Source: Nitrospirota bacterium (GTDB lineage: Bacteria > Nitrospirota > Nitrospiria > Nitrospirales > Nitrospiraceae). Taken from it: a stretch of 44,152 nucleotides of DNA. Location of the stretch: the NCBI GenBank assembly GCA_016207025.1, contig JACQQM010000070.1, positions 1 to 44,152 of the forward strand, read 5' to 3'. The position numbers and the translations under genes are program-made. The notes under the pieces were generated by a model. It did no database searches. It was given only the letters and a program-made list of their open reading frames with translations, and was not told the origin of the DNA. Shown here piece after piece: positions 17,395 to 40,227 of the stretch (its first letter is position 1; every line of letters begins with the position of its first letter).

Positions 17395-18510
17395 TTAGGC
17401 CCGCTCAGCCAGCAGAGATGCAGTAGGACGGGTGAGTAGCGGCTCTTCGGCCTGTTCGCTCGTTGCGGCGACCGCTCGTCGCCTATCCAAGTTCAGCAGC
17501 ATCACCCCGAGGACGACCATCAGCGTCAGATGGGAAAGCTGGAGCGCATATCCGGCCATAAACATGAGCCCCAAGCCAAAACCCGCCATGCGTCCGATGA
17601 TGAGCAACTTCACGATGGTGTATGACCAACAGAGTAACCCAGCAACATAGAAGGCAAACGGCAGGTAGAAGCTATATCCCATGCCCATCTGAAAGATCCA
17701 GCCGATGCCCTCCCCAGCTTTTCGAACGGTCTCAGCCAAGGCCTTGTCATAGAGAACCAGAAAATAGTCCAGAAAGAGGAGCGCCACGAACGCACATCCA
17801 CTAACAAGCGCAAACGTCGCCGCGCGGCGGCGCTGCCGCTTGTTTTTGGTCCACAGCGGAGTGCTCCCATAGGCCCAAAACACCAGTATGCTCGCCAAGA
17901 CCATCATGGCTTCGCCTGCCCGATTGACTTCGTGTACGAGAGGTGGCGCTGTGACTAGCCCGAGGAGGCCATAGGAGGTCGACACAGTCTGGTAATAGAG
18001 CCACCCGGTGATGCCGAGGAGGTAACACGTCATCATCGCGCGCTGCGACCGCTTGTGATGCGTCAGGAAGTACTCGACCGCAAGAATCGCCAGAACCGTG
18101 AATGAAATGACGTTATATACCACGGACCCCAGCATCGCGGGAGGATAGACCAGAAACACAATCGTCAAGAGCACGAGCAGGGACGCCGAAGGAACCAGCA
18201 GCGCGTTGGATCGCCCGCTACCCACGGTTCTCACATTACTGAGCAGCAGAAGGAACAGAGCGAGGAAAACAAGGAGCGAGACAAGGTTCAGCAGCGTGAA
18301 CCCGATGGACGACAAGGCTTTGAAGGTGATCCGTACTGACTCGTATTGCTGTGCAACCTTACCGAGGTGCATGCCGAGACGCGAGACGAGGCGATAGAGG
18401 ACAAGCTCGAGAAAACCAGCTAGGAGCAAGAGCTTAATTGTATATTCGAAGAGCAACTCTTGCTCTTCAACTCTCCCACCCCCCTTCTCCAAGACCTCCG
18501 AGCCTGCCAT
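17395..18510 (-). CDS. Polytopic membrane protein of unknown function
   Basis: A 371-residue protein with about nine or ten hydrophobic segments, for example near 25-42, 70-95, 108-125, 130-148, 160-178, 205-222, 235-255, 280-305 and 318-345. A basic cytoplasmic loop (KNKRQRRR) occurs near 225 and an acidic/polar tail at the C-terminus. No CXXCH, no recognised transporter signature and no clear family. It is the first gene after the TATAAT promoter at 18558-18587 and leads the TPR-TatA-NHL-NxrC-like operon. Function not assigned. Confidence 0.8.
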   Translation of the reverse strand: MAGSEVLEKGGGRVEEQELLFEYTIKLLLLAGFLELVLYRLVSRLGMHLGKVAQQYESVRITFKALSSIGFTLLNLVSLLVFLALFLLLLSNVRTVGSGRSNALLVPSASLLVLLTIVFLVYPPAMLGSVVYNVISFTVLAILAVEYFLTHHKRSQRAMMTCYLLGITGWLYYQTVSTSYGLLGLVTAPPLVHEVNRAGEAMMVLASILVFWAYGSTPLWTKNKRQRRRAATFALVSGCAFVALLFLDYFLVLYDKALAETVRKAGEGIGWIFQMGMGYSFYLPFAFYVAGLLCWSYTIVKLLIIGRMAGFGLGLMFMAGYALQLSHLTLMVVLGVMLLNLDRRRAVAATSEQAEEPLLTRPTASLLAERA

Positions 18511-18642: not shown

Positions 18643-20424
18643 TCAAGTACCGGTAGGCTGCGGCACGCGTTGCGCCTGTGCCTTTGCCCGTGCGATGTAG
18701 AGAAGGCCGTCCGCCATCGAGTAGTTGAAGGGCAGCTCACAGACGACCTCGCTGATCTTCTCATAGATGTGCTGGTACACCTTCTCCGCCTGCTCCGGGG
18801 TCATCCCTTCCTGGACCTCGTAGAAGAAGCCCAAGCTCAGATCCTCTGAGGCAGGCCTCATGATGCGCCGGATCCCGTAGCTGCCAGGATCACTCATGAT
18901 GGGCGCTTCCTTTTCGAGGTCAAAGAGGCACGGCTGGCAGGAGAACCCATACGATGAATTCAGACGTGTGTTGTTGACGATGAAGTTCATCGTCTCGCGC
19001 GCTTCTTCCTCCGTTTCGGTGGGGAATCCCGCAATAATGTAACAGTGGATCGCGATGCCGAGAGCCAGACAGTCCTCCGTCACACGCAGGACACTCGCCT
19101 GGGTAATGCCCTTCTTCATGAAGTCCATCACCCGCTGATTGAACGACTCGAGACCGAAGACAATTTTGAGGCAACCGGCATCCCGCATCAGCGTCAGCAA
19201 CTCGCGTGACAAATTCTTTTCAAACCGCATCTCGGCGGTCCACTGAATATTGAGGTTCCGGTCAAGAATCCGCTGACACAATCGCTTCGTCGGAGATAAC
19301 GCCAAGCATTCGTCCGTGAAGAAGAAGTACGGAGTCCGATATTTTTCCGACAGCATTCGCAGATCATCGACCGTCTTGGCCGGATCCTTCTGTCTGAAGT
19401 TTTGGTGGTCGAGGGTCAATGCGCAAAAGGCGCAATCCTTGTAATAGCATCCCCTGGAAAACTGAACCGGCAACACGGTGCTGGGCGCCAGGTACCGTCC
19501 GAGCGGGAATCCGTCATAGTTCGGCGCCGGCAGCTCGTTGATATTCTCGGAATAGAATGGCTGATTGACCGCAACCTTGCCATTTTGGCGGTAGATCAGG
19601 TTGGGTACCTTGCTGAAGTCTCTCTTGCCCTCAAGCTGATTGATGAGTTCCAGCAGCGCGGTCTCTCCCTCAAACACGATAAAGTCGTCGGTCAGTTCAA
19701 ACAGGCTGGGGCAGCGGCGGAGGTTATCAACCAAGCGGGTAAAAATACTTCCGCCGATCGTCAGATGGAGATCAGGGTTGGCCTCTTTGAGCAGCCGACA
19801 GAGGGTCAGACCGGGGATGATCTGGGACGTAGCGGTAATGGACACCCCGACGAAATCAGGCCGGTCCGCCAAGATCGAGGAGAGAAACTGTTCACGGAAC
19901 AGTTCAATGTAGGGGTTCTGCTCTTCATCACAAATCGCTTTCAGGATCTCTTTCGACGCGTAAATCGAATAGCTACCGAACTGATTGTCCACCACGGTCA
20001 TGCGAGTGGGGAAATAGAGCGACGACACCAGTTCCAGCCATTTGTCGATCAGAAAGAGACATTCGCGATACCGGTCGAGCTCATAAAAATCTTCTCCGCG
20101 CAAGGACTCCTTGGCAGGCTCGATCCGATCAATCAGATAGGGAAACCGGTCGAGCGATTCGACCACGCGCATATAGTGTTCATCACTGGATGGACCGGTT
20201 TCTCCTGTCCGCGCCCGCTCAAGTTTCTTTCTCTTTTCCTCGAGACGCGCGTAGACTTGCTCCCCGTACTGCTGGGTGAGAATATTGTCCAGGAGTTCGA
20301 TGCCCAAGTCACGCTGGGCGACGTTCTTGACACCGGCCTTCTCGAGAAAACCGGTGAGAGAAGGAAGGCTCAGATACGGCTGGGAAGGGTGCCAGGTTGG
20401 TGGAAATAACAGAGCTATATTCAT
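18643..20424 (-). CDS. Radical SAM protein with N-terminal B12-binding-like domain
   Basis: A 593-residue protein of the B12-binding-type radical SAM superfamily. The N-terminal region begins MNIALLFPPTW and has the Rossmann-like segments ITATSQIIPGL and LTIGGS (about 196-226), but no DxHxxG base-off cobalamin motif. The [4Fe-4S] motif is C326, C331 and C334: CX4CX2C, not the canonical CX3CX2C. Downstream segments FFFTDECLAL, KIVFGLESFNQRVMDFMKKG and IAGFPTETEEEA are typical of this group. The ATG at 20424 was preferred over an upstream GTG at 20454. Reaction and substrate unknown; it is a separate unit just upstream of the Tat/NxrC-like operon. Confidence 0.85.
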   Translation of the reverse strand: MNIALLFPPTWHPSQPYLSLPSLTGFLEKAGVKNVAQRDLGIELLDNILTQQYGEQVYARLEEKRKKLERARTGETGPSSDEHYMRVVESLDRFPYLIDRIEPAKESLRGEDFYELDRYRECLFLIDKWLELVSSLYFPTRMTVVDNQFGSYSIYASKEILKAICDEEQNPYIELFREQFLSSILADRPDFVGVSITATSQIIPGLTLCRLLKEANPDLHLTIGGSIFTRLVDNLRRCPSLFELTDDFIVFEGETALLELINQLEGKRDFSKVPNLIYRQNGKVAVNQPFYSENINELPAPNYDGFPLGRYLAPSTVLPVQFSRGCYYKDCAFCALTLDHQNFRQKDPAKTVDDLRMLSEKYRTPYFFFTDECLALSPTKRLCQRILDRNLNIQWTAEMRFEKNLSRELLTLMRDAGCLKIVFGLESFNQRVMDFMKKGITQASVLRVTEDCLALGIAIHCYIIAGFPTETEEEARETMNFIVNNTRLNSSYGFSCQPCLFDLEKEAPIMSDPGSYGIRRIMRPASEDLSLGFFYEVQEGMTPEQAEKVYQHIYEKISEVVCELPFNYSMADGLLYIARAKAQAQRVPQPTGT

Positions 20425-20485
20425 GGAGCCTTTGGCAAAACAACCTTCGATCACGGAACGATTCTAACGCCGCAATTTATATCCA

Positions 20486-20729: not shown

Positions 20730-21683
20730 TTAGGGCAGCTTCAACGTAAACCAGGTTGAAATGCCCTTCATCCCATTTCGTTCGACGTTGGCCCCATCCC
20801 ACACTGCAAACGCCACAGGTACCGACATTCCAGGCTTGAACTGAACATCGTTCGGGTCGCTGGTGGTCAACGTGCGCTTGACCACGATCCGCCACGTCGG
20901 TCCGACGCAGCAGCCTCCCTTGATCGAGCCGGCCGGCTCCCACAGGCCGTTCCCGATCACGTCCTGATGCGACTGCGTGGTCAGCGTGCTGAAGCCGTTA
21001 GCGTTGAGGTCTTCAACCGAGCTCACGCGCAGGGTCGGATCCGACAGGATGTTCCCGGACCAAATGCCAGGATTAAAAGGCCCCAGGCTCCGGCCGATTC
21101 TGTCAGGATACGTCACGCCGCCGGCAGGCTCTTCAAAGTAATAATCCCAGAAGATGCCCGGGTACTGATCGTCGACATCCCAAATGCCAGCACTGTCTTT
21201 CCCAATATCCTTCTGCCATTCCGCATTCCAACGCCAAATGTTGACCGTTCCGCCGGACTGCCCCATGCACTGGAACGGCGGCGCACCGGATGTGCTGACC
21301 GGGAACTGGAGTGCGGCCTGATCGCGAAAGTCCTGCGGCCCAATGGTGGTGTTGTTCAACGTCTGATCAGGCCAATCCAACCGGAAACCAAGTTCTTTCC
21401 CGTTCGTGACAGCCTTCACGAACACGGATTTCACCGAGATATTTGGATGCATCGGCGTGGTGATCGTTTGCCCGCTCAGCGGCACGACCACGCCCGGCAC
21501 ACCCTCCCAGATGGGATTCGCCCCGTCCATCGGGATCGGCCCCTTGATTGCCTTGACCGGGATGGTCACCGGTTGGCTGACGGCAAGAGGCACCTGCCCG
21601 ATCGTCAACATGAAGCCGACGACCAGCACAGAGAGAAGCATGCCAAACACCAACCCCTTGTTTCGTGTCTGCACCACTCTCAT
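20730..21683 (-). CDS. NxrC-like heme-b protein (nitrite oxidoreductase gamma subunit candidate)
   Basis: A 317-residue exported protein of the type II DMSO reductase gamma-subunit family. A signal or anchor segment spans about residues 8-36. PPFQCMGQ gives a candidate heme-b Met ligand (about M140), followed by VNIWRWNAEW; ERNGMKGIS near the C-terminus gives a candidate Lys ligand (about K306). It is longer than the first copy through a Tyr/Trp/Pro-rich insertion (about 165-215). The ATG at 21683 has a GGAGG site; an earlier Met at 21731 lacks one. The TorD-like chaperone gene ends 114 bases upstream of it. No nxrA or nxrB neighbours it here, so calling it NxrC rather than a paralogue is inference. 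Confidence 0.85.
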   Translation of the reverse strand: MRVVQTRNKGLVFGMLLSVLVVGFMLTIGQVPLAVSQPVTIPVKAIKGPIPMDGANPIWEGVPGVVVPLSGQTITTPMHPNISVKSVFVKAVTNGKELGFRLDWPDQTLNNTTIGPQDFRDQAALQFPVSTSGAPPFQCMGQSGGTVNIWRWNAEWQKDIGKDSAGIWDVDDQYPGIFWDYYFEEPAGGVTYPDRIGRSLGPFNPGIWSGNILSDPTLRVSSVEDLNANGFSTLTTQSHQDVIGNGLWEPAGSIKGGCCVGPTWRIVVKRTLTTSDPNDVQFKPGMSVPVAFAVWDGANVERNGMKGISTWFTLKLP

Positions 21684-21797
21684 ATGAATATGCCCTCCTC
21701 TTAAGTAAGGATTAAGTGCTGCTCGCATCACCGTCGACTATCGATCAATTCCTGCAGCCACTGCAGATGCAGATAAAATTCCGGGCGCGTCCTCCCG

Positions 21798-22757
21798 CTA
21801 CGCCGTGCCCACCGGTCCCGAATCGTCTTTCTCCTTCTCCTTATCCAAGAACGACTGCGCCCCCACTTCACTGAGCAGCATGCTCAACTCGCTCCCCTGA
21901 TCCTGCGCGCCGCATTCGTAGGTTTGCCCTTCCGGAGCATTGAATGTCGCCGGGCGGTATTCGGTTTCCGAATACGGTTGAGGGTTGACGCCCAAATAGG
22001 CGGCGTCTAAATCGACCCAATCCGATGAAAAGTCCGCCATGTCTTTGAAAAAGCCGGTGTCCGCTTTTTTCGCCAGCATCCTGGAGAAAAGCGGCACCCA
22101 CCGGCCGATATGATCTTTGACGAATTTTTTCTGGGCATCCACAACGATCTGCGTCTTGTCGGCCCCGTCATGGCAACGGGCGTAAGACTCCTTGTACGCG
22201 AGGAAATGCATGAACTCAAGCTCCACGCTCAAATGATCCATGCGCTCGTGAACATCTCGCGACAGTTCGACACCGAAAGCCCTGTAGAAACCGGCGATGT
22301 CGCCCATGACATGCGCTTGGCCAAAGACGTGATCGTTGCCGAAAAGGGTTTCGTAGGGGGGACAGTCCAAGGTGATCACATTGCTGAACACCCGCCGATG
22401 TTCAGCCTGAAGATCCGCTAACTGCCAATTGACACACTCGGAAGAGACCCAACGCTCGATCTGATCCAGATGCTTCGACAGCGCAGCAAGTTTCTGCTTC
22501 GCGCGCTCGCCACCGATTCCATCGAGCGCCCCGCGGAGGCTCTCGATGGCCGAACGCCCATCTTCCACGAACTCGCCGCTCTGCAGATAATCCAAAAACT
22601 CGTCATCTTCCGGATACAGCAAGCTCCATGAGAGAAGCAGATAAATCTTGCTTCGTCCTAATGCGCGCTCCACCGCCGGCGAATCTTTCAGGCCCCCGGC
22701 TTGAGGAGTCGCGGCGACGGGAGCCATCTGGCGCCTTTCACTTTCTTTCGTGTTCAT
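21798..22757 (-). CDS. TorD/DmsD-family molybdoenzyme chaperone
   Basis: Cytoplasmic chaperone of 319 residues that, in this family, binds the Tat leader and the apo-form of a DMSO reductase-family catalytic subunit until molybdenum cofactor is inserted. The family signature ERMDHLSVELEFMHFLA is at 171-187, preceded by CPPYETLFG near 132-140. It is longer than a typical TorD because of a C-terminal extension (about 230-319) with no recognised domain. GGAGGG precedes the ATG. It has its own strong promoter and lies upstream of an NxrC-like gene, so its client is likely an NXR-type alpha subunit encoded elsewhere (inference). Confidence 0.88.
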   Translation of the reverse strand: MNTKESERRQMAPVAATPQAGGLKDSPAVERALGRSKIYLLLSWSLLYPEDDEFLDYLQSGEFVEDGRSAIESLRGALDGIGGERAKQKLAALSKHLDQIERWVSSECVNWQLADLQAEHRRVFSNVITLDCPPYETLFGNDHVFGQAHVMGDIAGFYRAFGVELSRDVHERMDHLSVELEFMHFLAYKESYARCHDGADKTQIVVDAQKKFVKDHIGRWVPLFSRMLAKKADTGFFKDMADFSSDWVDLDAAYLGVNPQPYSETEYRPATFNAPEGQTYECGAQDQGSELSMLLSEVGAQSFLDKEKEKDDSGPVGTA

Positions 22758-22998: not shown

Positions 22999-23592
22999 CT
23001 AGCCAGCAATGAAGAGCCGAACCGGAGTGACCTTGATCGCAATGGTATCGTTCACGGTCTTACAAACCTGCTCGCAAATCCCGCAGCCCACACAGCGATC
23101 CGCGGCCACCTCAAGTCGGAACGCCTCGAAATCCATCTGCAAGGCTTGGGTCGGACACCGAGACACGCATGCGTGACAGCCCTGCCCGGCAGTGCAATCA
23201 CGATGCGACACCACGGCAAGGCCCATCTTGACCTCTTCTCGGCCAAAGACAGGAAGCAGCGCTTCGGTGCCGCAGGCCGCGATGCAGGGGAAATCTTCGC
23301 ACAGTTGGCAGGGGACTTCCTCCGGGAAAATGACCGGCGTGCCGGACCGCCGATCCACTTTGATACTTCCGTACGGGCAGGCTTTGAGGCAGTCTCCGCA
23401 CTGGGTGCACCGTTCCAGGAACAGAGTCTCCGTCACCGCACCCGGCGGGCGCAGCCAACCATCTCGGGGCGCCGGCTCAGCCTTCTCTGGCGGGGCATCC
23501 CTATGCTTGACGAACTCATGGGCCGTCTTCGCCAGCGAAAGAACGGATTCCTTAAGAAACCGCCGCCGCCCGTATTCCGGCTCAGTGCCCAT
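22999..23592 (-). CDS. NapG-like ferredoxin with four [4Fe-4S] clusters
   Basis: A 197-residue iron-sulfur protein with sixteen cysteines in four groups: 62/65/68/72, 95/98/103/107, 133/139/142/146 and 167/170/173/177. The spacing matches the NapG/DmsB-like ferredoxin fold. The N-terminus has GRRRFLKES at about 8-16, resembling a twin-arginine motif, but the segment after it is only weakly hydrophobic, so export is doubtful. A GGGAGGT site precedes the ATG. It starts 12 bases after the HExxH gene stop and is very likely co-transcribed with it. Probable electron carrier; its partner is unknown. Confidence 0.88.
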   Translation of the reverse strand: MGTEPEYGRRRFLKESVLSLAKTAHEFVKHRDAPPEKAEPAPRDGWLRPPGAVTETLFLERCTQCGDCLKACPYGSIKVDRRSGTPVIFPEEVPCQLCEDFPCIAACGTEALLPVFGREEVKMGLAVVSHRDCTAGQGCHACVSRCPTQALQMDFEAFRLEVAADRCVGCGICEQVCKTVNDTIAIKVTPVRLFIAG

Positions 23593-23604: not shown

Positions 23605-24603
23605 CTACATGACCCCATCCGCCCGTAGTTTGTACACTTCGATGCAACGGTCACAAGCGCCAAATTCCGTATCCCATCCCGGATGATTTTCCCGAATAAA
23701 CTCGAGCACGTGCTTCTCCAACTTATGCTCCAGATCTTCCACCCAGTCGTAGGTAGGGAACCGGCAGAGCGGACAGGGGAACCCCGGCATCAGCATAATC
23801 TTGTTCTGGGTCGCCGGGACCTCCCCGCCTTCGACGTACAGCGCCCGGTCCATCACATGCAGCGTATCGCTGGCCATTTCCACCAACTCGGAATGCGTCA
23901 ACGACTCCGTTTGCCACAAGCCTTCGAAGACGGATTTGAGCTGCGCGGGGGGAATTTTTCGATACCACGATCGGAACTCCTTGAACCGATCCTCCTTCGT
24001 CAACATCGCTTCCTTGCCGGCCCGCATCAATCGACTGTCGATGTTCATGCACCATAGCACACGATAGCGCTGCAGGATGAGCGTTTCCTCGCCGGGATTC
24101 TGCCCGACTTTGGTATCCGGATCATAGTTGAAGTTTTCGTCCAGGATATCTGCGATGTGGGTGAGTTCGTGGCGGCAGTATCGGGTGAGAGCTGGATCAT
24201 AGAAGCGCCGGGGAATCAACTTGATGCCCACCCCTTTGAGACCCTTTTCCTCGAACTGCTTGGCCAGTTCATGCTCGACCGACCCCCACCTTCGAAGAAT
24301 ATCGACACCTTCCTGGTCCTCCTTCAAGACCCCCTTGATCAAGACGATGCCGATTTTCCCCTTGACCGTCGGGAATTCATCGAACGCGTCCCGGATGATG
24401 TCCGAAAATCCCCAAATCCCAAACAGGTACTGGTACAGTTTCTTGAACTCCCCCTCGCGGTCGTCCAACGAAAACCGCTCGTAGATCGGGTCGGCCAGCT
24501 CATGAAATTCTTTATAATAGGTCGGGTCGCCTTCCCGTTCGGTTTTCTCCACGAAGGAGTCGATGACTTCCTGAAGGAGGGCGGGCTGAAACCTGATCTC
24601 CAT
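23605..24603 (-). CDS. Uncharacterised protein with HExxH and C-terminal CxxC pairs
   Basis: A 332-residue soluble protein that I do not recognise. Residues 145-149 read HELTH, the zinc-metallopeptidase HExxH pattern, in the context RYCRHELTHIADIL, with E172 and E173 downstream as possible third ligands. The C-terminus holds two Cys pairs, CPLC at 277-280 and CDRC at 317-320, that could form a zinc site. There is no signal peptide or membrane helix. It is just upstream of the four-cluster ferredoxin (12 bases). A peptidase role, for instance in maturation, is possible but unproven; the motif may be structural. Confidence 0.75.
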   Translation of the reverse strand: MEIRFQPALLQEVIDSFVEKTEREGDPTYYKEFHELADPIYERFSLDDREGEFKKLYQYLFGIWGFSDIIRDAFDEFPTVKGKIGIVLIKGVLKEDQEGVDILRRWGSVEHELAKQFEEKGLKGVGIKLIPRRFYDPALTRYCRHELTHIADILDENFNYDPDTKVGQNPGEETLILQRYRVLWCMNIDSRLMRAGKEAMLTKEDRFKEFRSWYRKIPPAQLKSVFEGLWQTESLTHSELVEMASDTLHVMDRALYVEGGEVPATQNKIMLMPGFPCPLCRFPTYDWVEDLEHKLEKHVLEFIRENHPGWDTEFGACDRCIEVYKLRADGVM

Positions 24604-24731: not shown

Positions 24732-24836
24732 TCAGCAGAGTTACGAGTTTGATTATAGCGATCGACACCTCGATTTGCAAATGCCGTGGGAGTTCAGAGC
24801 GAGTATCGCCCCTCCCTGGAAAAGAGGAATGCGTGT

Positions 24837-25946
24837 ATGGCTGAGCCGTTTACTCCTGAAGCTTCTGCAGGCGTCCCTTGCGGTCCGGTCCCCGGGGATG
24901 CGACGCAACCGAGACAGGTCGACTTTCTTGAATATTGGAAGGCCGGAAGCCGAGAGGTCAAGACCTTCAGAGGCCACACGCACGGGGTCTGGACCGTCGC
25001 CTATGCCCCGGATGGGCTCACCCTGGCGAGCGGCGGCGTCGATCGACTCGTGCGGATCTGGGATATTGAGACGGGGCGGTTGCTCAAATCGTTGCGCGGC
25101 CACACGCACGACATCCGTGCAGCGGTGTTCACGCCCGACTGCCAGTCCCTCGCCACAGGAAGCGAGGACCGCACGATTCGGCTCTGGAATCCCAAAACCG
25201 GCGAGCCGACAAAATTATTGTATACTCGCTATGACCACAACATCACCAGCCTCTCACTGTCGCCGGATGGGCTCATGCTAGCTCGCGGGAGCCACAACAA
25301 GGACATCAAGATTTGGGAGGTCACCACCGGCACCGAATTGATGACGTTGCTCGGCAAAGATCAGTACGATCATTTTTGGACGCCCTGTGTCGTCTTTTCA
25401 CCGGACGGCATCCATCTGGCGAGCGGCAGCGATATAGGCAAGATCAAAATCTGGGAAGTGCTCCCCAGCGGTGATGAGAAAGTTGTCGCCGACGGACACT
25501 GGCGGGAGGTGATAGAAGACGACACCACCGAGTATCGCGGGTTCTTTGTGGAGGACGAGGCTAGCGCGTTTCAGACGCCGATGGAGTCTTGGATCGGCGC
25601 GATGACATTTACGCCCGATGGAAAGATTCTGATCACGGGCAGCCGCGACTGCACGATCAAATTCTTCGAGATGCCCCTGGCGAATGAGATCCGCACGCTG
25701 AAAGGGCACGCCGGTTGGGTGCGTTCCCTGGCCATGTCCCCTGACGGCAAAGTCCTGGCAAGCGCCAGCGACGACCAGACGATCAAGCTCTGGGATATCG
25801 CCGCGGGGCGCCACTTTAGTACGCTGAAGGGACACGCCGGCGCGGTACGATGCGTGGCGTTTTCTCCAGACGGCCTGCGGCTTGCCAGCGCCTCGTGGGA
25901 CCGGACCGTCAAGCTCTGGGAGGGTGGATCAGAGCCTCCGGAGTGA
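24837..25946 (+). CDS. WD40-repeat beta-propeller protein
   Basis: A 369-residue protein made of seven WD40 units from about residue 35 to the end, recognisable by GH near each start, FSPDG or TPDG turns and endings such as VRIWD, IRLWN, IKIWE and VKLWE. Repeats four and five are divergent, with an acidic insertion between them at about 215-250. No signal peptide, membrane helix or enzymatic domain. The ATG at 24837 has a GAGGA site; a GTG at 24786 is possible. It is divergent from the HExxH gene and converges on the sigma-54 activator, only two bases between stops. Likely a scaffold; partner unknown. Confidence 0.85.
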   Translation: MAEPFTPEASAGVPCGPVPGDATQPRQVDFLEYWKAGSREVKTFRGHTHGVWTVAYAPDGLTLASGGVDRLVRIWDIETGRLLKSLRGHTHDIRAAVFTPDCQSLATGSEDRTIRLWNPKTGEPTKLLYTRYDHNITSLSLSPDGLMLARGSHNKDIKIWEVTTGTELMTLLGKDQYDHFWTPCVVFSPDGIHLASGSDIGKIKIWEVLPSGDEKVVADGHWREVIEDDTTEYRGFFVEDEASAFQTPMESWIGAMTFTPDGKILITGSRDCTIKFFEMPLANEIRTLKGHAGWVRSLAMSPDGKVLASASDDQTIKLWDIAAGRHFSTLKGHAGAVRCVAFSPDGLRLASASWDRTVKLWEGGSEPPE

Positions 25947-25948
25947 CG

Positions 25949-27391
25949 CTATTCCTCGTCGTGTCCGTATTTCCCGGTCGCAATTCCGTAGCGCTTGCAT
26001 TTCTCCCACAACGACTTTCTGGATAAGCCAAGAATCTTCGAGGCCTCGGTCCTGCTTCCCTGAACACGATCGAGCACGGACAGGATATACTGCCGTTCAA
26101 ACTGTTCCCGCGCGGCAGATAGGGAATCAACCTTCGCCACGTGATGGCCCTTGCCGGTGAGGCCTTCGCTGCAAAACCCGCAGGTGTCCTGTGGCGTCCC
26201 ACCAAGATACGGGCAGGAGGGGAATCCGCAGAGATCCCACGCCTGAATCTCTTCGCTCGGCCGACCCAGCGCCACGGCACGCTCCACCATGTTCTCCAGT
26301 TCTCGGACGTTGCCGGGGAACGAGTAGCGCAAGAGTAACTCCTGCGCGCTCTGCGAAAATCCTTTTAATGGCTTGCTCGTGCGAGACGACCGAGTCTTGA
26401 GCATGTATTCGGCGATCACCATAATATCTTCCCGCCGCTCCCGCAGTGGCGGGAGCAGTACGGGCACCACGTTCAGTCGATAGTATAAATCCTCTCGGAA
26501 CCGTCCTTGCTGGACCTCCTTTTTCAGGTCCTTCTGCGTCGCGCAGACCAGGCGGACATCCACTTCGACCGTCTCGTTTCCTCCAACACGTTCAAACTGT
26601 CGTTCTTGGATGACCCGGAGCAGTTTGACCTGCACAACCGGGGAGATCTCGCCGATCTCGTCCAAAAACAGCGTGCCTTTGTGGGCCAGTTCAAAGCGGC
26701 CCCGCCGCTGCCGGAGCGCGCCGGTGAACGCCCCCTTTTCATGCCCGAAGAGCTCCGCCTCAAGCAACGTTTCCGGAAGGGCCGCGCAACTGACCTTGAT
26801 CAGTGCGTGGTCCCGACGCGGGCTGTTGCGGTGAATGGCATTGGCCACCAACTCCTTGCCCGTTCCGCTCTCTCCGATAATCAACACAGTCGAGTCCGTT
26901 CCGGAGACCAACTTGATTTTTTCCAGGACCTCCCGCATGCGGTGGTTCTTGCCGTGGATCCCTTCGCAACTGAATTTTCCCTCTAATTCTTCCCGTAACT
27001 GAATATTTTCTTGGCGAAGCGCCGTGACCTTCGACACACGGTCCACAATCAACAGGAGTTCTTCCATCGAGAACGGCTTCGTGATGTAGTCGTAGGCCCC
27101 CCGTTTCATCGCCTCCACAGCGGTCTCGACCGACCCGTGAGCGGTGATCACGATGACCTCCGTCCGCGGGGAGTACTGCTTACACACCTGCAAGATCTCG
27201 AGACCATCGGAACCCGGTAGGCGGAGATCGGTAATGACGATGTCGAATGAATCTTGATTATTGAGGATCTGAAGACCTTCCTGTCCCGACGCCGCAGCGC
27301 GCACCTCGTAGCCGACCGCTTTGAGGGCATCTATCATGGAGAGGCGCATCAATGGTTCGTCATCGATGATCAAGACCGACGGAGGCTTCAT
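25949..27391 (-). CDS. NtrC-family sigma-54-dependent response regulator
   Basis: A 480-residue activator of sigma-54 promoters. The receiver domain has the acidic pair near D10/D11, phospho-acceptor D55 and K105. The AAA+ domain carries Walker A GESGTGKE at 173-180 and the sigma-54 contact loop GAFTGA at 220-225. A Fis-type helix-turn-helix (about 448-470) ends the protein. Between the AAA+ and DNA-binding parts is an unusual Cys-rich segment with C388, C393, C404 and C407, which might bind a metal or sense redox state. Its ATG overlaps the kinase stop (ATGA), so the two are translationally coupled. Target promoters are unknown. Confidence 0.93.
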   Translation of the reverse strand: MKPPSVLIIDDEPLMRLSMIDALKAVGYEVRAAASGQEGLQILNNQDSFDIVITDLRLPGSDGLEILQVCKQYSPRTEVIVITAHGSVETAVEAMKRGAYDYITKPFSMEELLLIVDRVSKVTALRQENIQLREELEGKFSCEGIHGKNHRMREVLEKIKLVSGTDSTVLIIGESGTGKELVANAIHRNSPRRDHALIKVSCAALPETLLEAELFGHEKGAFTGALRQRRGRFELAHKGTLFLDEIGEISPVVQVKLLRVIQERQFERVGGNETVEVDVRLVCATQKDLKKEVQQGRFREDLYYRLNVVPVLLPPLRERREDIMVIAEYMLKTRSSRTSKPLKGFSQSAQELLLRYSFPGNVRELENMVERAVALGRPSEEIQAWDLCGFPSCPYLGGTPQDTCGFCSEGLTGKGHHVAKVDSLSAAREQFERQYILSVLDRVQGSRTEASKILGLSRKSLWEKCKRYGIATGKYGHDEE

Positions 27392-30300
27392 GGCATCCTC
27401 CCGACCGCGACCCGTTCCCGCGTCAACGGCAGGCAGACGGTGAAGACCGTCCCCTTCCCTACCTCACTGTCAACAAGGATCCGCCCTCCATGCCGTTCGA
27501 CGATCCCAAGGCTCACGGACAACCCAAGCCCGGTCCCTTCCCCGGTGCTTTTTGTCGTAAAGAAGGGGTCAAAGATGCGGGGCAAAATGTTGGGAGGGAT
27601 GCCGCAGCCCGTATCTTCGACATCGATCGCGCAAGTGTCGTTTGCGACCCGTGTCCGAATCGTGACCACTCCCCCGCCCCTGATCGCCTGGACAGCATTG
27701 AGAACCAGATTCATCAGCACCTGCTCCATCATATGCCGATCCACCAGCAACATTGGCAGATTCGGCTGGAGTTGCTTTTCCAGCCGGATGTGATTCGCGA
27801 CAAAGGCGTGATTCGTCAGGACCAGCACCCGCTCGACAATCGTGTTGATATCGGTTGAGGTGAGTTCGGGTTCGTGTTGCTGTGAAAAGTCCAACAACTG
27901 GCGAACAATCCTCTGGACACGCCTCAGCCCATCCTCCATGGAGAGGAGGTACTCCTCTTGCCTCGCGAGCGGCAAGGTTCCTTTACGGAGGTTGTACAGA
28001 CAATTCAGGATACCTCCTAACGGGTTGTTGATCTCGTGTGCGACGCCAGCCGCCAGCTTCCCGACCGAGACCAGTTTCTCGGAATTCCTGATCTGCTGTT
28101 CCAGCTTCTTCGTCTCCGTGATGTCGCGGGCGATGCCCAACACGCCCAGAATCCCTCCCTCCGGATCGAAGAGCGGCGACACGCTGACCATGACAGCTCT
28201 GGCCTCTCCGTTTCGACAGATGACTTCGACTTCGTAGACCTGCTTGGCGCCGATATCCAAGGTGCTCTTCAGGCGACGCCCGCGGTGCCGCTTCGAGAGC
28301 AAGGACAGATACGGCCGACCGATGAGATCTTGCTTGCGGTACCCCCAGGCTTCAACCTTGCTGTTGACATAGGTGAAGCGTTGGTCCGTATCCAGCGTGT
28401 AGATGACATCATTGGCGTTCTCTAACAGATTTTCGAGGTACTGCTTCGTCTCCTCGATCTGGCGAGTCCGCTCCCGGACTTTGGCCTCCAGCTCCTCGCT
28501 GTATTCCTGCAGCTGTTGCTCCAAGCGTTTGCGTTCCGTAATATCGCGGAGTTGCACCATCACGGACACCGTGGGCCTGTCTTCGATTCGTATCAGATCC
28601 ATCTCGACGGGAGTGGGTCTCCCGTATCGATTCAACACCTCGATTTCCTGGGTGGGCACCTGGCTCTCGCCCCGCACAATTTTTTCGATCAACCCGCTCG
28701 TCACGTCATGGTGTTTGGGGAGGACGTGATCGAGAAAAGGCCTTCCCACAACCTGAGCCTCGGAATATCCGAGCGCCTGCTCTTCGCGTTTATTGACCGC
28801 GGCGATACGACCGTCCGGATCGACCATAAACACCGAGTCGGCCGCCAGATCAAACAGCGTCTTGTAACGCTCCTGGGACTCAAACAGTTGTTGCGTCTGG
28901 GCGGCCACCTCCTGCTCCAATTGCGTCGTGTATCGCTGAATTTTCTGCTCCAGAAGCTTGCGCTGACTGATATCGCGCACGAAGGCCCGGGAGTGAACCA
29001 GTCCTCCTCCTTCGGGATCCAACAGAGCGGTCGAGTGGATCTCCACATCAATAGGTTTGCCGTCTCGGGTGAGAAAGACCGTCTCGATCGTGGTGCGTTC
29101 TTGCGACACAAGACGCTCCAGATAGGCCAGGATTTCTGGTTCCCGCCCCTTGGGAACGATGTCCCAGAGGTGCATCTTCAGCATCTCTTCACTCGAGTAC
29201 CCCAGCTTTTCCAGCTCAGTCTTGTTCACGTGCACGAATTGCCCGGCTTTATCCAGTTGGTGGATCATTTCCGGCGAGTTTTCGATCAGATCTCGATAGC
29301 GCTCCTCCAGCCTACGAATGTCGGTCATCCGCTGCTCAAGCTGACCGAACGACTGCTTCAGATTGACAGCCATCTTGTTGAAGGCTTCGGCCAGATGTTC
29401 GATCTCATCCCCGGTCCTGAGCGTCAACTGGTGATCCAACCTGCCGGCCCCAATGCGTTGCGCACCTTCCTGGAGAACTCGAATCGGACGGGCAATCCGC
29501 CGGGCCACCACCACGCCGGTTCCCCAGAGCACGGCAAGAACCACGACCCCATACATCGCTACTTTGACCAGCAATTGGCTGAGAGGCGCGTAGGTCTCGC
29601 TCGGGTTCTGCCGGACGAAGGTCAGCCATCGCTTCCCTCCCAGACTGTCCGCCGAAAGCTTACCGCCTAAGCGCACAGGCGCGAAGCCCACAATCGCATC
29701 GCGGCCCCCGTGCGTATCGTCGGCGGCCACGACCCATCCCGCTTGAGGGCGTGTGATCTCGCTCACAAGGGCCTGAGTCACGGAATGCTCCTCGGGAGCG
29801 AGAATGGGACAGATCAGAGGAGTGCCGTCCGAGCTCATCAGCATGGCATGACCGGTGGCGCCGATCGTGACTTCCGAGATCGAGTGAAACAACGAGTCAC
29901 GCCTCAGCAGCACGCTGACGGCTCCGATGGCGGTCTGTTGGTCATCGTCCAGGATCGGGACGGATACGTTGACGACGTGGGTGCCGAAGGAGGGATCGAA
30001 GTAGATATCGCTCACGTAGATTTGGCCGCGTCCTCCGCTGGACACCGCCTGCCACCAGGCGCTCTTTCCATAGTAATACTCCACCTGCGGAATCGAGCTG
30101 ATCACGAGCGCACCCTGATTATCCGTCACGAGGATCCCGATATAATCGGACTTCCGGATGTCGTGCCATCGAATCAGGTTATTGGTGACCAGGCGATTGA
30201 TGAACAACGGAAACTCATCCTGCCGTTCCCTCGTTCTCCATCGCCCTTGCCAGTCCAGGATCATCGCCTGGATGCTTCGATCATTTTTCCCCACATAGCT

Positions 30301-30567
30301 GCGATTCGCCTCCGCCACGGCCGTTCGGAGAAACGGCGTGGTGGCCAGCTGCTGGGCCTCATTGATCCCACGGGTGATCTGCATTTCAACCCCGCGGGCC
30401 GCATCAACTGCAATTTCTTTGAAATTGGCCCCGACGGTCTCGCGGAGGGCGCGGCGTTCTTCAACGTAGGTGAGAATCAAGGACAGCGTGAGAGGCAGGA
30501 GGCCGACCATCACGATGGCCGTGATGATCTTCCGCTGGAGACTGTGTGACCGACTCCAGAGTTTCAT
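27388..30567 (-). CDS. Membrane histidine kinase with Cache, HAMP and three PAS domains
   Basis: A 1059-residue sensor kinase, partner of the overlapping NtrC-family regulator. Order: membrane helix about 13-34, a periplasmic Cache-type sensor domain about 40-325, membrane helix about 332-355, HAMP about 356-410, PAS domains at about 420-535, 565-680 and 710-820, and then the kinase core. The phospho-acceptor is H844 in GVAHEINNP. The ATPase has N953/N957, DTGCGIP at 985-991 and GEGTGLGL at 1009-1016. The large external domain implies a small-molecule ligand outside the cytoplasm. No heme or Cys motif is visible in the PAS domains. The signal is unknown. Confidence 0.93.
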   Translation of the reverse strand: MKLWSRSHSLQRKIITAIVMVGLLPLTLSLILTYVEERRALRETVGANFKEIAVDAARGVEMQITRGINEAQQLATTPFLRTAVAEANRSYVGKNDRSIQAMILDWQGRWRTRERQDEFPLFINRLVTNNLIRWHDIRKSDYIGILVTDNQGALVISSIPQVEYYYGKSAWWQAVSSGGRGQIYVSDIYFDPSFGTHVVNVSVPILDDDQQTAIGAVSVLLRRDSLFHSISEVTIGATGHAMLMSSDGTPLICPILAPEEHSVTQALVSEITRPQAGWVVAADDTHGGRDAIVGFAPVRLGGKLSADSLGGKRWLTFVRQNPSETYAPLSQLLVKVAMYGVVVLAVLWGTGVVVARRIARPIRVLQEGAQRIGAGRLDHQLTLRTGDEIEHLAEAFNKMAVNLKQSFGQLEQRMTDIRRLEERYRDLIENSPEMIHQLDKAGQFVHVNKTELEKLGYSSEEMLKMHLWDIVPKGREPEILAYLERLVSQERTTIETVFLTRDGKPIDVEIHSTALLDPEGGGLVHSRAFVRDISQRKLLEQKIQRYTTQLEQEVAAQTQQLFESQERYKTLFDLAADSVFMVDPDGRIAAVNKREEQALGYSEAQVVGRPFLDHVLPKHHDVTSGLIEKIVRGESQVPTQEIEVLNRYGRPTPVEMDLIRIEDRPTVSVMVQLRDITERKRLEQQLQEYSEELEAKVRERTRQIEETKQYLENLLENANDVIYTLDTDQRFTYVNSKVEAWGYRKQDLIGRPYLSLLSKRHRGRRLKSTLDIGAKQVYEVEVICRNGEARAVMVSVSPLFDPEGGILGVLGIARDITETKKLEQQIRNSEKLVSVGKLAAGVAHEINNPLGGILNCLYNLRKGTLPLARQEEYLLSMEDGLRRVQRIVRQLLDFSQQHEPELTSTDINTIVERVLVLTNHAFVANHIRLEKQLQPNLPMLLVDRHMMEQVLMNLVLNAVQAIRGGGVVTIRTRVANDTCAIDVEDTGCGIPPNILPRIFDPFFTTKSTGEGTGLGLSVSLGIVERHGGRILVDSEVGKGTVFTVCLPLTRERVAVGRMP

Positions 30568-38432: not shown

Positions 38433-40190
38433 TTAAATCTTGCCCTTCTTTTTATTCTTTCGCCGAGTCAGCACCCACCCTTCCAAGATCACAACGCCGA
38501 CTGCGATCAAGGTCGGATAGATGTACGTTTCCTTCGGAATGGGTGGCTCCAGGATGGTGTAGTAGAACGCCGAGACCGCGTTTTTACGACCGACGTCGCC
38601 GTTATGGCCATCCCACGCAAAGAAGACGGTCGGGATGTACTTCCCCGCCTCGAAGTACGTGTCTTCGTCGTAATCTCCCTTCCGGGGCCGCTGGATGATC
38701 AGCGTCCACAGGCCGTCTTTCCATTCGGCCTTGAGGAGCTTCATCTTCTCCTCGAAGTCATCACGCTCTTCAAAGTCCTGATCCCAGCCGGTCCCGGTAA
38801 ACGCCTTCAGGGAACCATCGGCCTCCCATTTCATGATATCCACGGGATACTTCTGGTCGCCCCAGAAAAAGCGTGGCTTCTCGGGTGGCGGGAGCTCCTG
38901 CCACTTGACCGGGAACTCGATGGCAAACGCGTCGTTGTAAATGGTGTACTTGTTCTGGTTGGCTGCAATGGAGTCGGGCTCTCCCGTCTTCGGAGGCTGC
39001 TCCTTGATCCCGTAATCCTCGAGGTTGACCTCGGTCGGCTGGAACGGCAGTTTCCCCTCCGCTACGCTCTTCGACCGATCCTCCCACTGAAACAGAAAGG
39101 CGATTTTTTTATCGTTGTAAATCGACTTCACCCAGACATCGTCGATACGGTTGACGAAGTTCCGTGGCTTGTGCGTGATCTGCCCGCCGAAGAGCACGAT
39201 GCGACGCTCGCGCTTCTGCCACAGCTCATTCTCCGGATCGTCAGGGATCTCCCCTTCAATGGGGCCCGACCGGATCACAAAGTTGATTTTCGGCTTGTCG
39301 GTTAACGGATCAATCGCGAGCGGATCACCATTCGGACCCCGCTCGCAGAGCGACTGCACGAAGTTCGCGATGTGCCACCGCTCCTCGATCGTGGTGTTAT
39401 CCGCAAAGGACGGCATGGGTGTGCCGTTGACCCCGGTGGAGAACGTTCGGAAAATGTTCTTCACATCGTACGGATCCTGGCGGCTCCCCCGGAAGTTCCA
39501 GCACTTGTGCCAGCTCGCTGGCTGGATCGGGAAGCCCCAGTCGTCTTTCAGGTTGAACGCATTCCCGTCTCCCCGTCCATTCACCCCGTGGCACTCGATG
39601 CACTTCTTGTCCACGACCAGTTGGGCGCCCTTCTCAAGGCTTTCCTTCGAGGGCGAGATCGGCTTGATGTTGTCCAACTGGAGAATTGTGAATGTTTCGG
39701 TCTCCTTGTCGTCGAACTTCCGATCCTTCACCAGTTGCGTCGTCACAAACGCGATGACCTGACGGCGTTGGTCCTCCGTGAGGATCCCCTCCCACGACGG
39801 CATGGCCGAGCCCGGGAGCCCATGCGTCACCGTCTGGAACAGGTCCAATTGCGGAAGCGGCAACTCCCCGCTCGCCGTGTGCCGAATCTTAAAGGTCCCC
39901 TGGTTGAAATTCCTTGGCCTCGGCCAGAGTCGGTCAGCGGACGGGCCGTCCCCCGCCCCGTCCACCCCGTGGCACCAGACGCACTTGGTAAAATAGACTC
40001 GCTTGCCGGCCTCAATATCCTCCGCCTTGGGCATCGGCGGCAGATCGGACTTCTTAAATCCCTCAGGGACTCCGCTCCCGCCGCCCTCCTCGGCATAGGT
40101 CCAGACCGCGGCACTGCCGGAGATCATGGCAATCCCTATGGCGGCGACCAGAAGCAGAAGCCGTACGCTTTTAAACCGAAGGTCCTTCAT
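38433..40190 (-). CDS. Diheme cytochrome c fused to an NxrC-like (EBDH gamma) domain, membrane anchored
   Basis: A 585-residue fusion. A signal or anchor helix (about 10-30) is followed by two class I cytochrome c domains, with CVWCH at 70-74 (Met from AMPSW near 130) and CIECH at 197-201 (Met from PMPSF near 259). Residues about 300-550 match the ethylbenzene dehydrogenase-type heme-b domain, and one helix (about 558-575) plus a Lys-rich tail anchors the C-terminus. Where the two stand-alone NxrC-like proteins have CMGQ, this one reads FFWGDQ, so the candidate Met ligand is missing. The ATG at 40190 has AAGGGG upstream. Last gene of the bd-like oxidase operon. Confidence 0.88.
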   Translation of the reverse strand: MKDLRFKSVRLLLLVAAIGIAMISGSAAVWTYAEEGGGSGVPEGFKKSDLPPMPKAEDIEAGKRVYFTKCVWCHGVDGAGDGPSADRLWPRPRNFNQGTFKIRHTASGELPLPQLDLFQTVTHGLPGSAMPSWEGILTEDQRRQVIAFVTTQLVKDRKFDDKETETFTILQLDNIKPISPSKESLEKGAQLVVDKKCIECHGVNGRGDGNAFNLKDDWGFPIQPASWHKCWNFRGSRQDPYDVKNIFRTFSTGVNGTPMPSFADNTTIEERWHIANFVQSLCERGPNGDPLAIDPLTDKPKINFVIRSGPIEGEIPDDPENELWQKRERRIVLFGGQITHKPRNFVNRIDDVWVKSIYNDKKIAFLFQWEDRSKSVAEGKLPFQPTEVNLEDYGIKEQPPKTGEPDSIAANQNKYTIYNDAFAIEFPVKWQELPPPEKPRFFWGDQKYPVDIMKWEADGSLKAFTGTGWDQDFEERDDFEEKMKLLKAEWKDGLWTLIIQRPRKGDYDEDTYFEAGKYIPTVFFAWDGHNGDVGRKNAVSAFYYTILEPPIPKETYIYPTLIAVGVVILEGWVLTRRKNKKKGKI

Positions 40191-40227
40191 AGTGTACCCC
40201 TTCACTTTTCACTGATTAGAGATCGGA

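Follow-up and report, generated by a model that had tools for sequence, protein, structure and literature searches.

The question raised by this locus is what a 332-residue protein with a HELTH motif and two C-terminal cysteine pairs does in a Nitrospirota gene cluster linked to nitrite oxidoreductase (NXR). NXR catalyses the step of nitrification in which nitrate is formed, and to our knowledge no accessory factor of this enzyme beyond TorD has been named. The window analysed here comprises positions 1 to 44,152 of contig JACQQM010000070.1 (assembly GCA_016207025.1), and the protein is referred to as HYP. Its open reading frame starts with ATG, comprises 332 codons and carries AGGAG a few bases 5′ of the start. 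The HELTH motif lies within RHELTHIAD (residues 144–152). This motif, the CPLC and CDRC pairs, the reading frame itself and the 12 bp gap to the gene of a four-cluster NapG-like ferredoxin had all been described in the original prediction, and each is confirmed in the sequence. HYP is kept in 43 of 45 good-quality genomes of relatives at 70–89% identity; it is a real, conserved gene.

The earlier statement that no family is recognisable holds across the databases searched. The Pfam search returned no families at E values up to 1, and PHROGs gave no match. The single NCBIfam line, EutH (E 0.048; cut-off 575 bits), is a chance match, and nothing was found among PDB sequences by either sequence or profile search. 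Profile searches, proposed as a check together with structure prediction, did recover homologues in several phyla, but no Pfam, NCBIfam or PDB family. A sigma-54 promoter 5′ of HYP, an idea suggested by the NtrC-type neighbour, scored no better than shuffled sequence.

The surroundings of the gene are informative (Table 1). The window carries an NXR accessory cluster of the Nitrospirales, comprising HYP, the ferredoxin, a TorD-type chaperone and NxrC, and the same four genes with the NtrC-type regulator and the sensor kinase are also found in N. defluvii, N. moscoviensis and deeper Nitrospirales. In N. moscoviensis, HYP is probably NITMOv2_3627, since HYP adjoins the NapG-like gene, which there is NITMOv2_3626, a periplasmic nitrate reductase marker gene annotated as NapG (PMC6131200). 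The cluster NITMOv2_3614–3631 has been listed as diagnostic of nitrite oxidation; the 2025 paper that does so speaks of no more than "several proteins of unknown function", and its available text does not give the motif, function or wider spread of HYP (PMC12342949).

Table 1. Genes of the cluster and candidate functional residues of HYP (window positions; residue counts over 95 distinct HYP-homologous domains, cysteines over 93).
Feature	Position	Strand	Evidence or conservation
HYP (HExxH protein, 332 aa)	23605..24603	(-)	Heads minus-strand block; no family match
NapG-like ferredoxin, four [4Fe-4S] motifs	22999..23592	(-)	Pfam/NCBIfam searches; adjoins HYP in tabulated Nitrospirales loci
TorD/NarJ-type chaperone of type II DMSO-reductase family enzymes	21798..22757	(-)	PF02613 3.4e-21; TIGR03482 9.6e-26
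NxrC, heme b-type gamma subunit	20730..21731	(-)	PF09459 3.5e-28; TIGR03477 2.6e-40
NtrC-type response regulator	25949..27391	(-)	66-73% identical neighbours in N. defluvii, N. moscoviensis and f2/f3 loci
Sensor histidine kinase, partner of NtrC-type regulator	27388..30567	(-)	Conserved cluster comparison
HELTH, residues 145-149	24157..24171	(-)	H145 84/95, E146 95/95, H149 92/95
Asp152 of HExxHxxD	24148..24150	(-)	95/95, invariant
Asp189 of W-x4-D-x-R, candidate third metal ligand	24037..24039	(-)	91/95
His237	23893..23895	(-)	95/95, invariant
CPLC, residues 277-280, first half of C-terminal ribbon	23764..23775	(-)	Both Cys 93/93
CDRC, residues 317-320, second half of C-terminal ribbon	23644..23655	(-)	Both Cys 93/93

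Several further features of the window were recorded. Near the start of the ferredoxin, an RRRFLK stretch resembles a Tat motif. A WD40-repeat protein (24786–25946) lies upstream of HYP and is divergently transcribed. Just downstream of NxrC is a B12-binding/radical SAM protein (18643–20454), which falls below all NCBIfam cut-offs and is about 70–77% identical in other Nitrospirales clusters. The conserved cluster also includes a 371-residue protein without a Pfam match (17395–18510; 56–60% identical in other Nitrospirales). A cytochrome c/EB_dh fusion at 38433–40205 resembles the alternative NxrC of Nitrospira.

The association of HYP with NXR can be followed through the distribution of NxrB. 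With a full-length NxrB query, the NXR type was defined at an identity of at least 65%, and a sister group of NxrB-like proteins lies at 53–59%. The counts cover Nitrospirota and Methylomirabilota. Within this scope, HYP shows the distribution of an NXR-operon accessory. It is present in 69 of the 70 Nitrospirota genomes with NXR-type NxrB (of 296; exception G296) and in 20 of the 21 such Methylomirabilota genomes (of 95), and it is absent from all 18 genomes that have the sister protein only (11 Nitrospirota, 7 Methylomirabilota). In the Methylomirabilota exception, G333, the sequence breaks off within torD, the gene after which HYP would be expected. The reverse situation, HYP without an NXR-type NxrB match, occurs in five Methylomirabilota genomes, most of them contig-end cases, and in 29 Nitrospirota genomes, that of the window included. 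The latter are put down to poor assembly of multi-copy nxr genes; the 2025 paper notes poor assembly wherever nxr is present in several near-identical copies (PMC12342949). The window's own assembly (G000, 85% complete) has no NxrB match at E 1e-100, and nxrAB are probably missing from this bin.

Two further comparisons concern the same association. Pairwise distances of HYP and NxrB over 27 loci give a Mantel r of 0.83, against a maximum of 0.29 in 2000 permutations, a result that reports shared inheritance and not interaction. In the first search of relatives, none of the four genomes of the Nitrospirales family f4 had HYP. The 2025 paper describes UBA2166 as the one Nitrospirales family without NXR (PMC12342949), and the HYP-less f4 would match it.

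Beyond the Nitrospirales, a single genome-wide pattern search, together with profile searches of five phyla, recovered homologues of 25–45% identity in Methylomirabilota, Acidobacteriota, a Poribacteria group and one Tectomicrobia genome. Others are encoded in a MAG labelled "Nitrospinae" that belongs to a small, separate phylum, and in a Nitrospirota genome outside the Nitrospirales (G091). The great majority of full-length HYP loci adjoin NXR-type nxrA, nxrB, torD or nxrC, and the loci without such neighbours (L164, L185, L187, L205) lie on short contigs or near contig ends. The gene order differs between lineages: HYP-nxrA-nxrB-torD-nxrC, nxrC-nxrA-nxrB-torD-HYP and nxrB-torD-nxrC-HYP-ferredoxin all occur, next to HYP-ferredoxin-torD-nxrC in the Nitrospirales, so the link has survived rearrangement. 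HYP is encoded and inherited with NXR in at least five bacterial groups. Two loci are not counted for this spread, both being probable bin contamination: a Nitrospirales-type cluster in a MAG named Methylomirabilota (L140, G325:C71), which is kept in alignment A5 as a Nitrospirales-type row, and an 87% identical copy in a MAG named Acidobacteria (L082).

The conserved residues of HYP describe what the protein may bind. The residues E146, D152, F158, W184, R191 and H237 are each present in 95 of 95 domains, and both histidines together with E146, D152, D189 and H237 occur in 83 of them. Such conservation gives good support to the two metal sites of the original prediction, one presumably formed by the HExxH motif and the other by the four cysteines of the C-terminal ribbon. 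The third ligand has to be revised. A downstream glutamate, as in a gluzincin, had been expected, but E172 and E173 are conserved in only 63 and 67 of the 95 domains and were rejected, and Asp189 is the better candidate. Modest evidence from related rows suggests that H145, H149 and D189 form one site, because all three sequences without H149 have also altered D189 (to S, E and E), as opposed to a single, conservative change among the other 50 rows of the tree.

The structure of HYP was predicted twice. A first AlphaFold model, built with 17 close sequences, reached a pLDDT of 78 and had no fold match, and a second (AlphaFold2, 36 diverse sequences) reached a pLDDT of 91 and a pTM of 0.81. The latter consists of a helical N-terminal part, strands at 84–91, 99–102 and 123–129, the HExxH helix at 139–154, a long helix at 170–194 which bears D189, and the C-terminal ribbon. 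A strand directly precedes the HExxH helix, as in zincins. The second model is confident, but Foldseek gave no significant match in the PDB or the viral library. The best PDB match is 4l7a, a putative zinc metallopeptidase (E 0.45, probability 0.14). Among the weak matches in the viral library are peptidases, SprT-like and IrrE-like ones included. Together, these features hint at a zincin-like core and do not establish it.

Both parts of HYP also occur on their own. Stand-alone proteins of about 200–216 residues without a Pfam family (L172:6507–7106, L211:3843–4490, L212:1083–1730) lie outside NXR clusters and carry the HExxHxxD...W...D-x-R arrangement; because these three share it, it is the core of a wider, undescribed metalloprotein family. 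The ribbon (CPxC...HPEW...GxCxxC) is found as separate small open reading frames at L165–L171 beside unrelated genes, and its use as a specific NXR marker was rejected on these grounds. Since core and ribbon each occur alone, HYP can be regarded as a combination of two modules.

On one rival reading, HYP is an active zinc metallopeptidase, in which HExxH, with Asp189 as third ligand, would serve in the cytoplasm to trim or quality-control a subunit of NXR, be it NxrA or another. HExxH is intact in all Nitrospirales examined and in most homologues outside this order, the stand-alone relatives keep HExxHxxD and D-x-R, D189 changes together with H149, the strand before the HExxH helix is placed as in zincins, and the weak Foldseek matches include several metallopeptidases. 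Against this stands the fate of the histidines. On the tree, their loss takes five changes, of which well-supported branches force at least four, and the genes with a degenerate pair still lie beside NXR genes. Because of these repeated losses, peptidase activity cannot, as judged from the alignment, be the universal function of HYP. Moreover, E146 is invariant even where the histidine ligands are gone, so its role would not be only catalytic. The putative substrate offers no counterpart either: the Tat leader and the C-terminus of NxrA are alike in lineages with intact and degenerate HYP, no terminal extension is specific to the intact lineages, and an NxrA tail missing from the degenerate ones, with a candidate cleavage segment, was looked for and not seen. 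With no significant peptidase family or fold match in addition, the metallopeptidase explanation is unlikely as a whole, though HYP may act as a peptidase in lineages with an intact site, among them all Nitrospirales examined. Loss of the motif in orthologues, which the original prediction had named as evidence against itself, does occur, but outside the Nitrospirales only.

The linkage to NXR is also consistent with a regulatory role or with an unusual role in subunit interaction. In the regulatory scenario, HYP would be a metal- or redox-sensing partner of the NXR cluster, for example together with the NtrC/kinase pair, and would act on nxr expression instead of on assembly. Its two candidate metal sites and the adjoining two-component and ferredoxin genes of the tabulated Nitrospirales loci could be taken as support. 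The two-component genes and the ferredoxin are nevertheless absent beside HYP in most other phyla, where NxrA, NxrB and TorD remain, and neither Pfam nor NCBIfam finds a DNA-binding or signalling domain in HYP, which makes such a role very unlikely. The ferredoxin link noted at the outset holds within the Nitrospirales but not in most other phyla, and the NXR operon is the constant partner. That HYP is a dispensable passenger of the operon or a structural subunit of the final complex would explain the strict linkage but is highly improbable, given 70–89% identity across the Nitrospirales with invariant motifs, retention through several operon rearrangements, and no visible signal peptide in a protein that would belong to a periplasmic enzyme.

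The explanation towards which we lean, by a narrow preference, is that HYP is a cytoplasmic maturation factor dedicated to NXR. All NxrA N-termini that were read begin with a twin-arginine leader (RRxFL-like), and because HYP itself lacks a visible signal peptide, it would act in the cytoplasm before export. Its client would be NxrA, as apoprotein or partly assembled, or perhaps NxrAB. TorD would be its partner in this step, ahead of Tat export of the folded complex. Contact with the client would fall to the N-terminal body, and its stabilisation or recognition to the Cys4 ribbon with Zn or Fe; where the HExxH/Asp189 site is present, it would bind a metal. In the alternative originally offered, a maturation peptidase or an assembly factor, it is the assembly factor that fits the NXR linkage; the case for the peptidase is weaker, with the glutamate unconserved and the histidines lost at least four times. 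Other periplasmic type II enzymes, such as ethylbenzene dehydrogenase and selenate reductase, are not known to require a HYP-like protein, and this is counted against a maturation role.

A more far-reaching version of the maturation role can be proposed tentatively, although we consider it doubtful. HYP would then be a zincin-type protein, with a HExxH...Asp core and a Cys4 ribbon, required for all NXR of the clade, and would represent a new class of molybdoenzyme maturation factors with its origin in a family of stand-alone metalloproteins. Its enzymatic activity would persist in nitrite oxidisers and would have been lost secondarily in several other lineages. Being present in essentially every NXR-type genome tested, HYP is a direct candidate for a missing co-expression partner, and it offers defined residues to mutate. 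One "protein of unknown function" of the nitrite-oxidation cluster, as the 2025 paper words it, thereby becomes testable (PMC12342949).

Three known systems can be compared with HYP. Zincins, including the HExxH...Asp types FtsH and deuterolysin, share the HExxH helix after a strand and a conserved downstream aspartate; unlike them, HYP has no family or significant fold match and a site that is degenerate in several lineages. The TorD/NarJ chaperones belong to the same operon and presumably serve the same client, but are a different family: the PF02613/TIGR03482 match falls on the neighbouring true TorD and not on HYP, which has the extra ribbon. FdhE (PF04216; E. coli, P. aeruginosa 2FIY) is a CxxC metal-binding accessory protein tied to operons of Tat-exported molybdoenzymes (PMC10609526), and HYP is likewise a CxxC protein of such operons. 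Membership of HYP in this family was rejected, as there is no PF04216 match; FdhE, with four CxxC motifs, is an accessory of formate dehydrogenases, whereas HYP has two together with HExxHxxD and goes with NXR. FdhE may still be the closest functional parallel, in role and not in homology, and HYP would be a second dedicated chaperone or proofreading factor for NXR, much as FdhE is for Tat-exported formate dehydrogenases.
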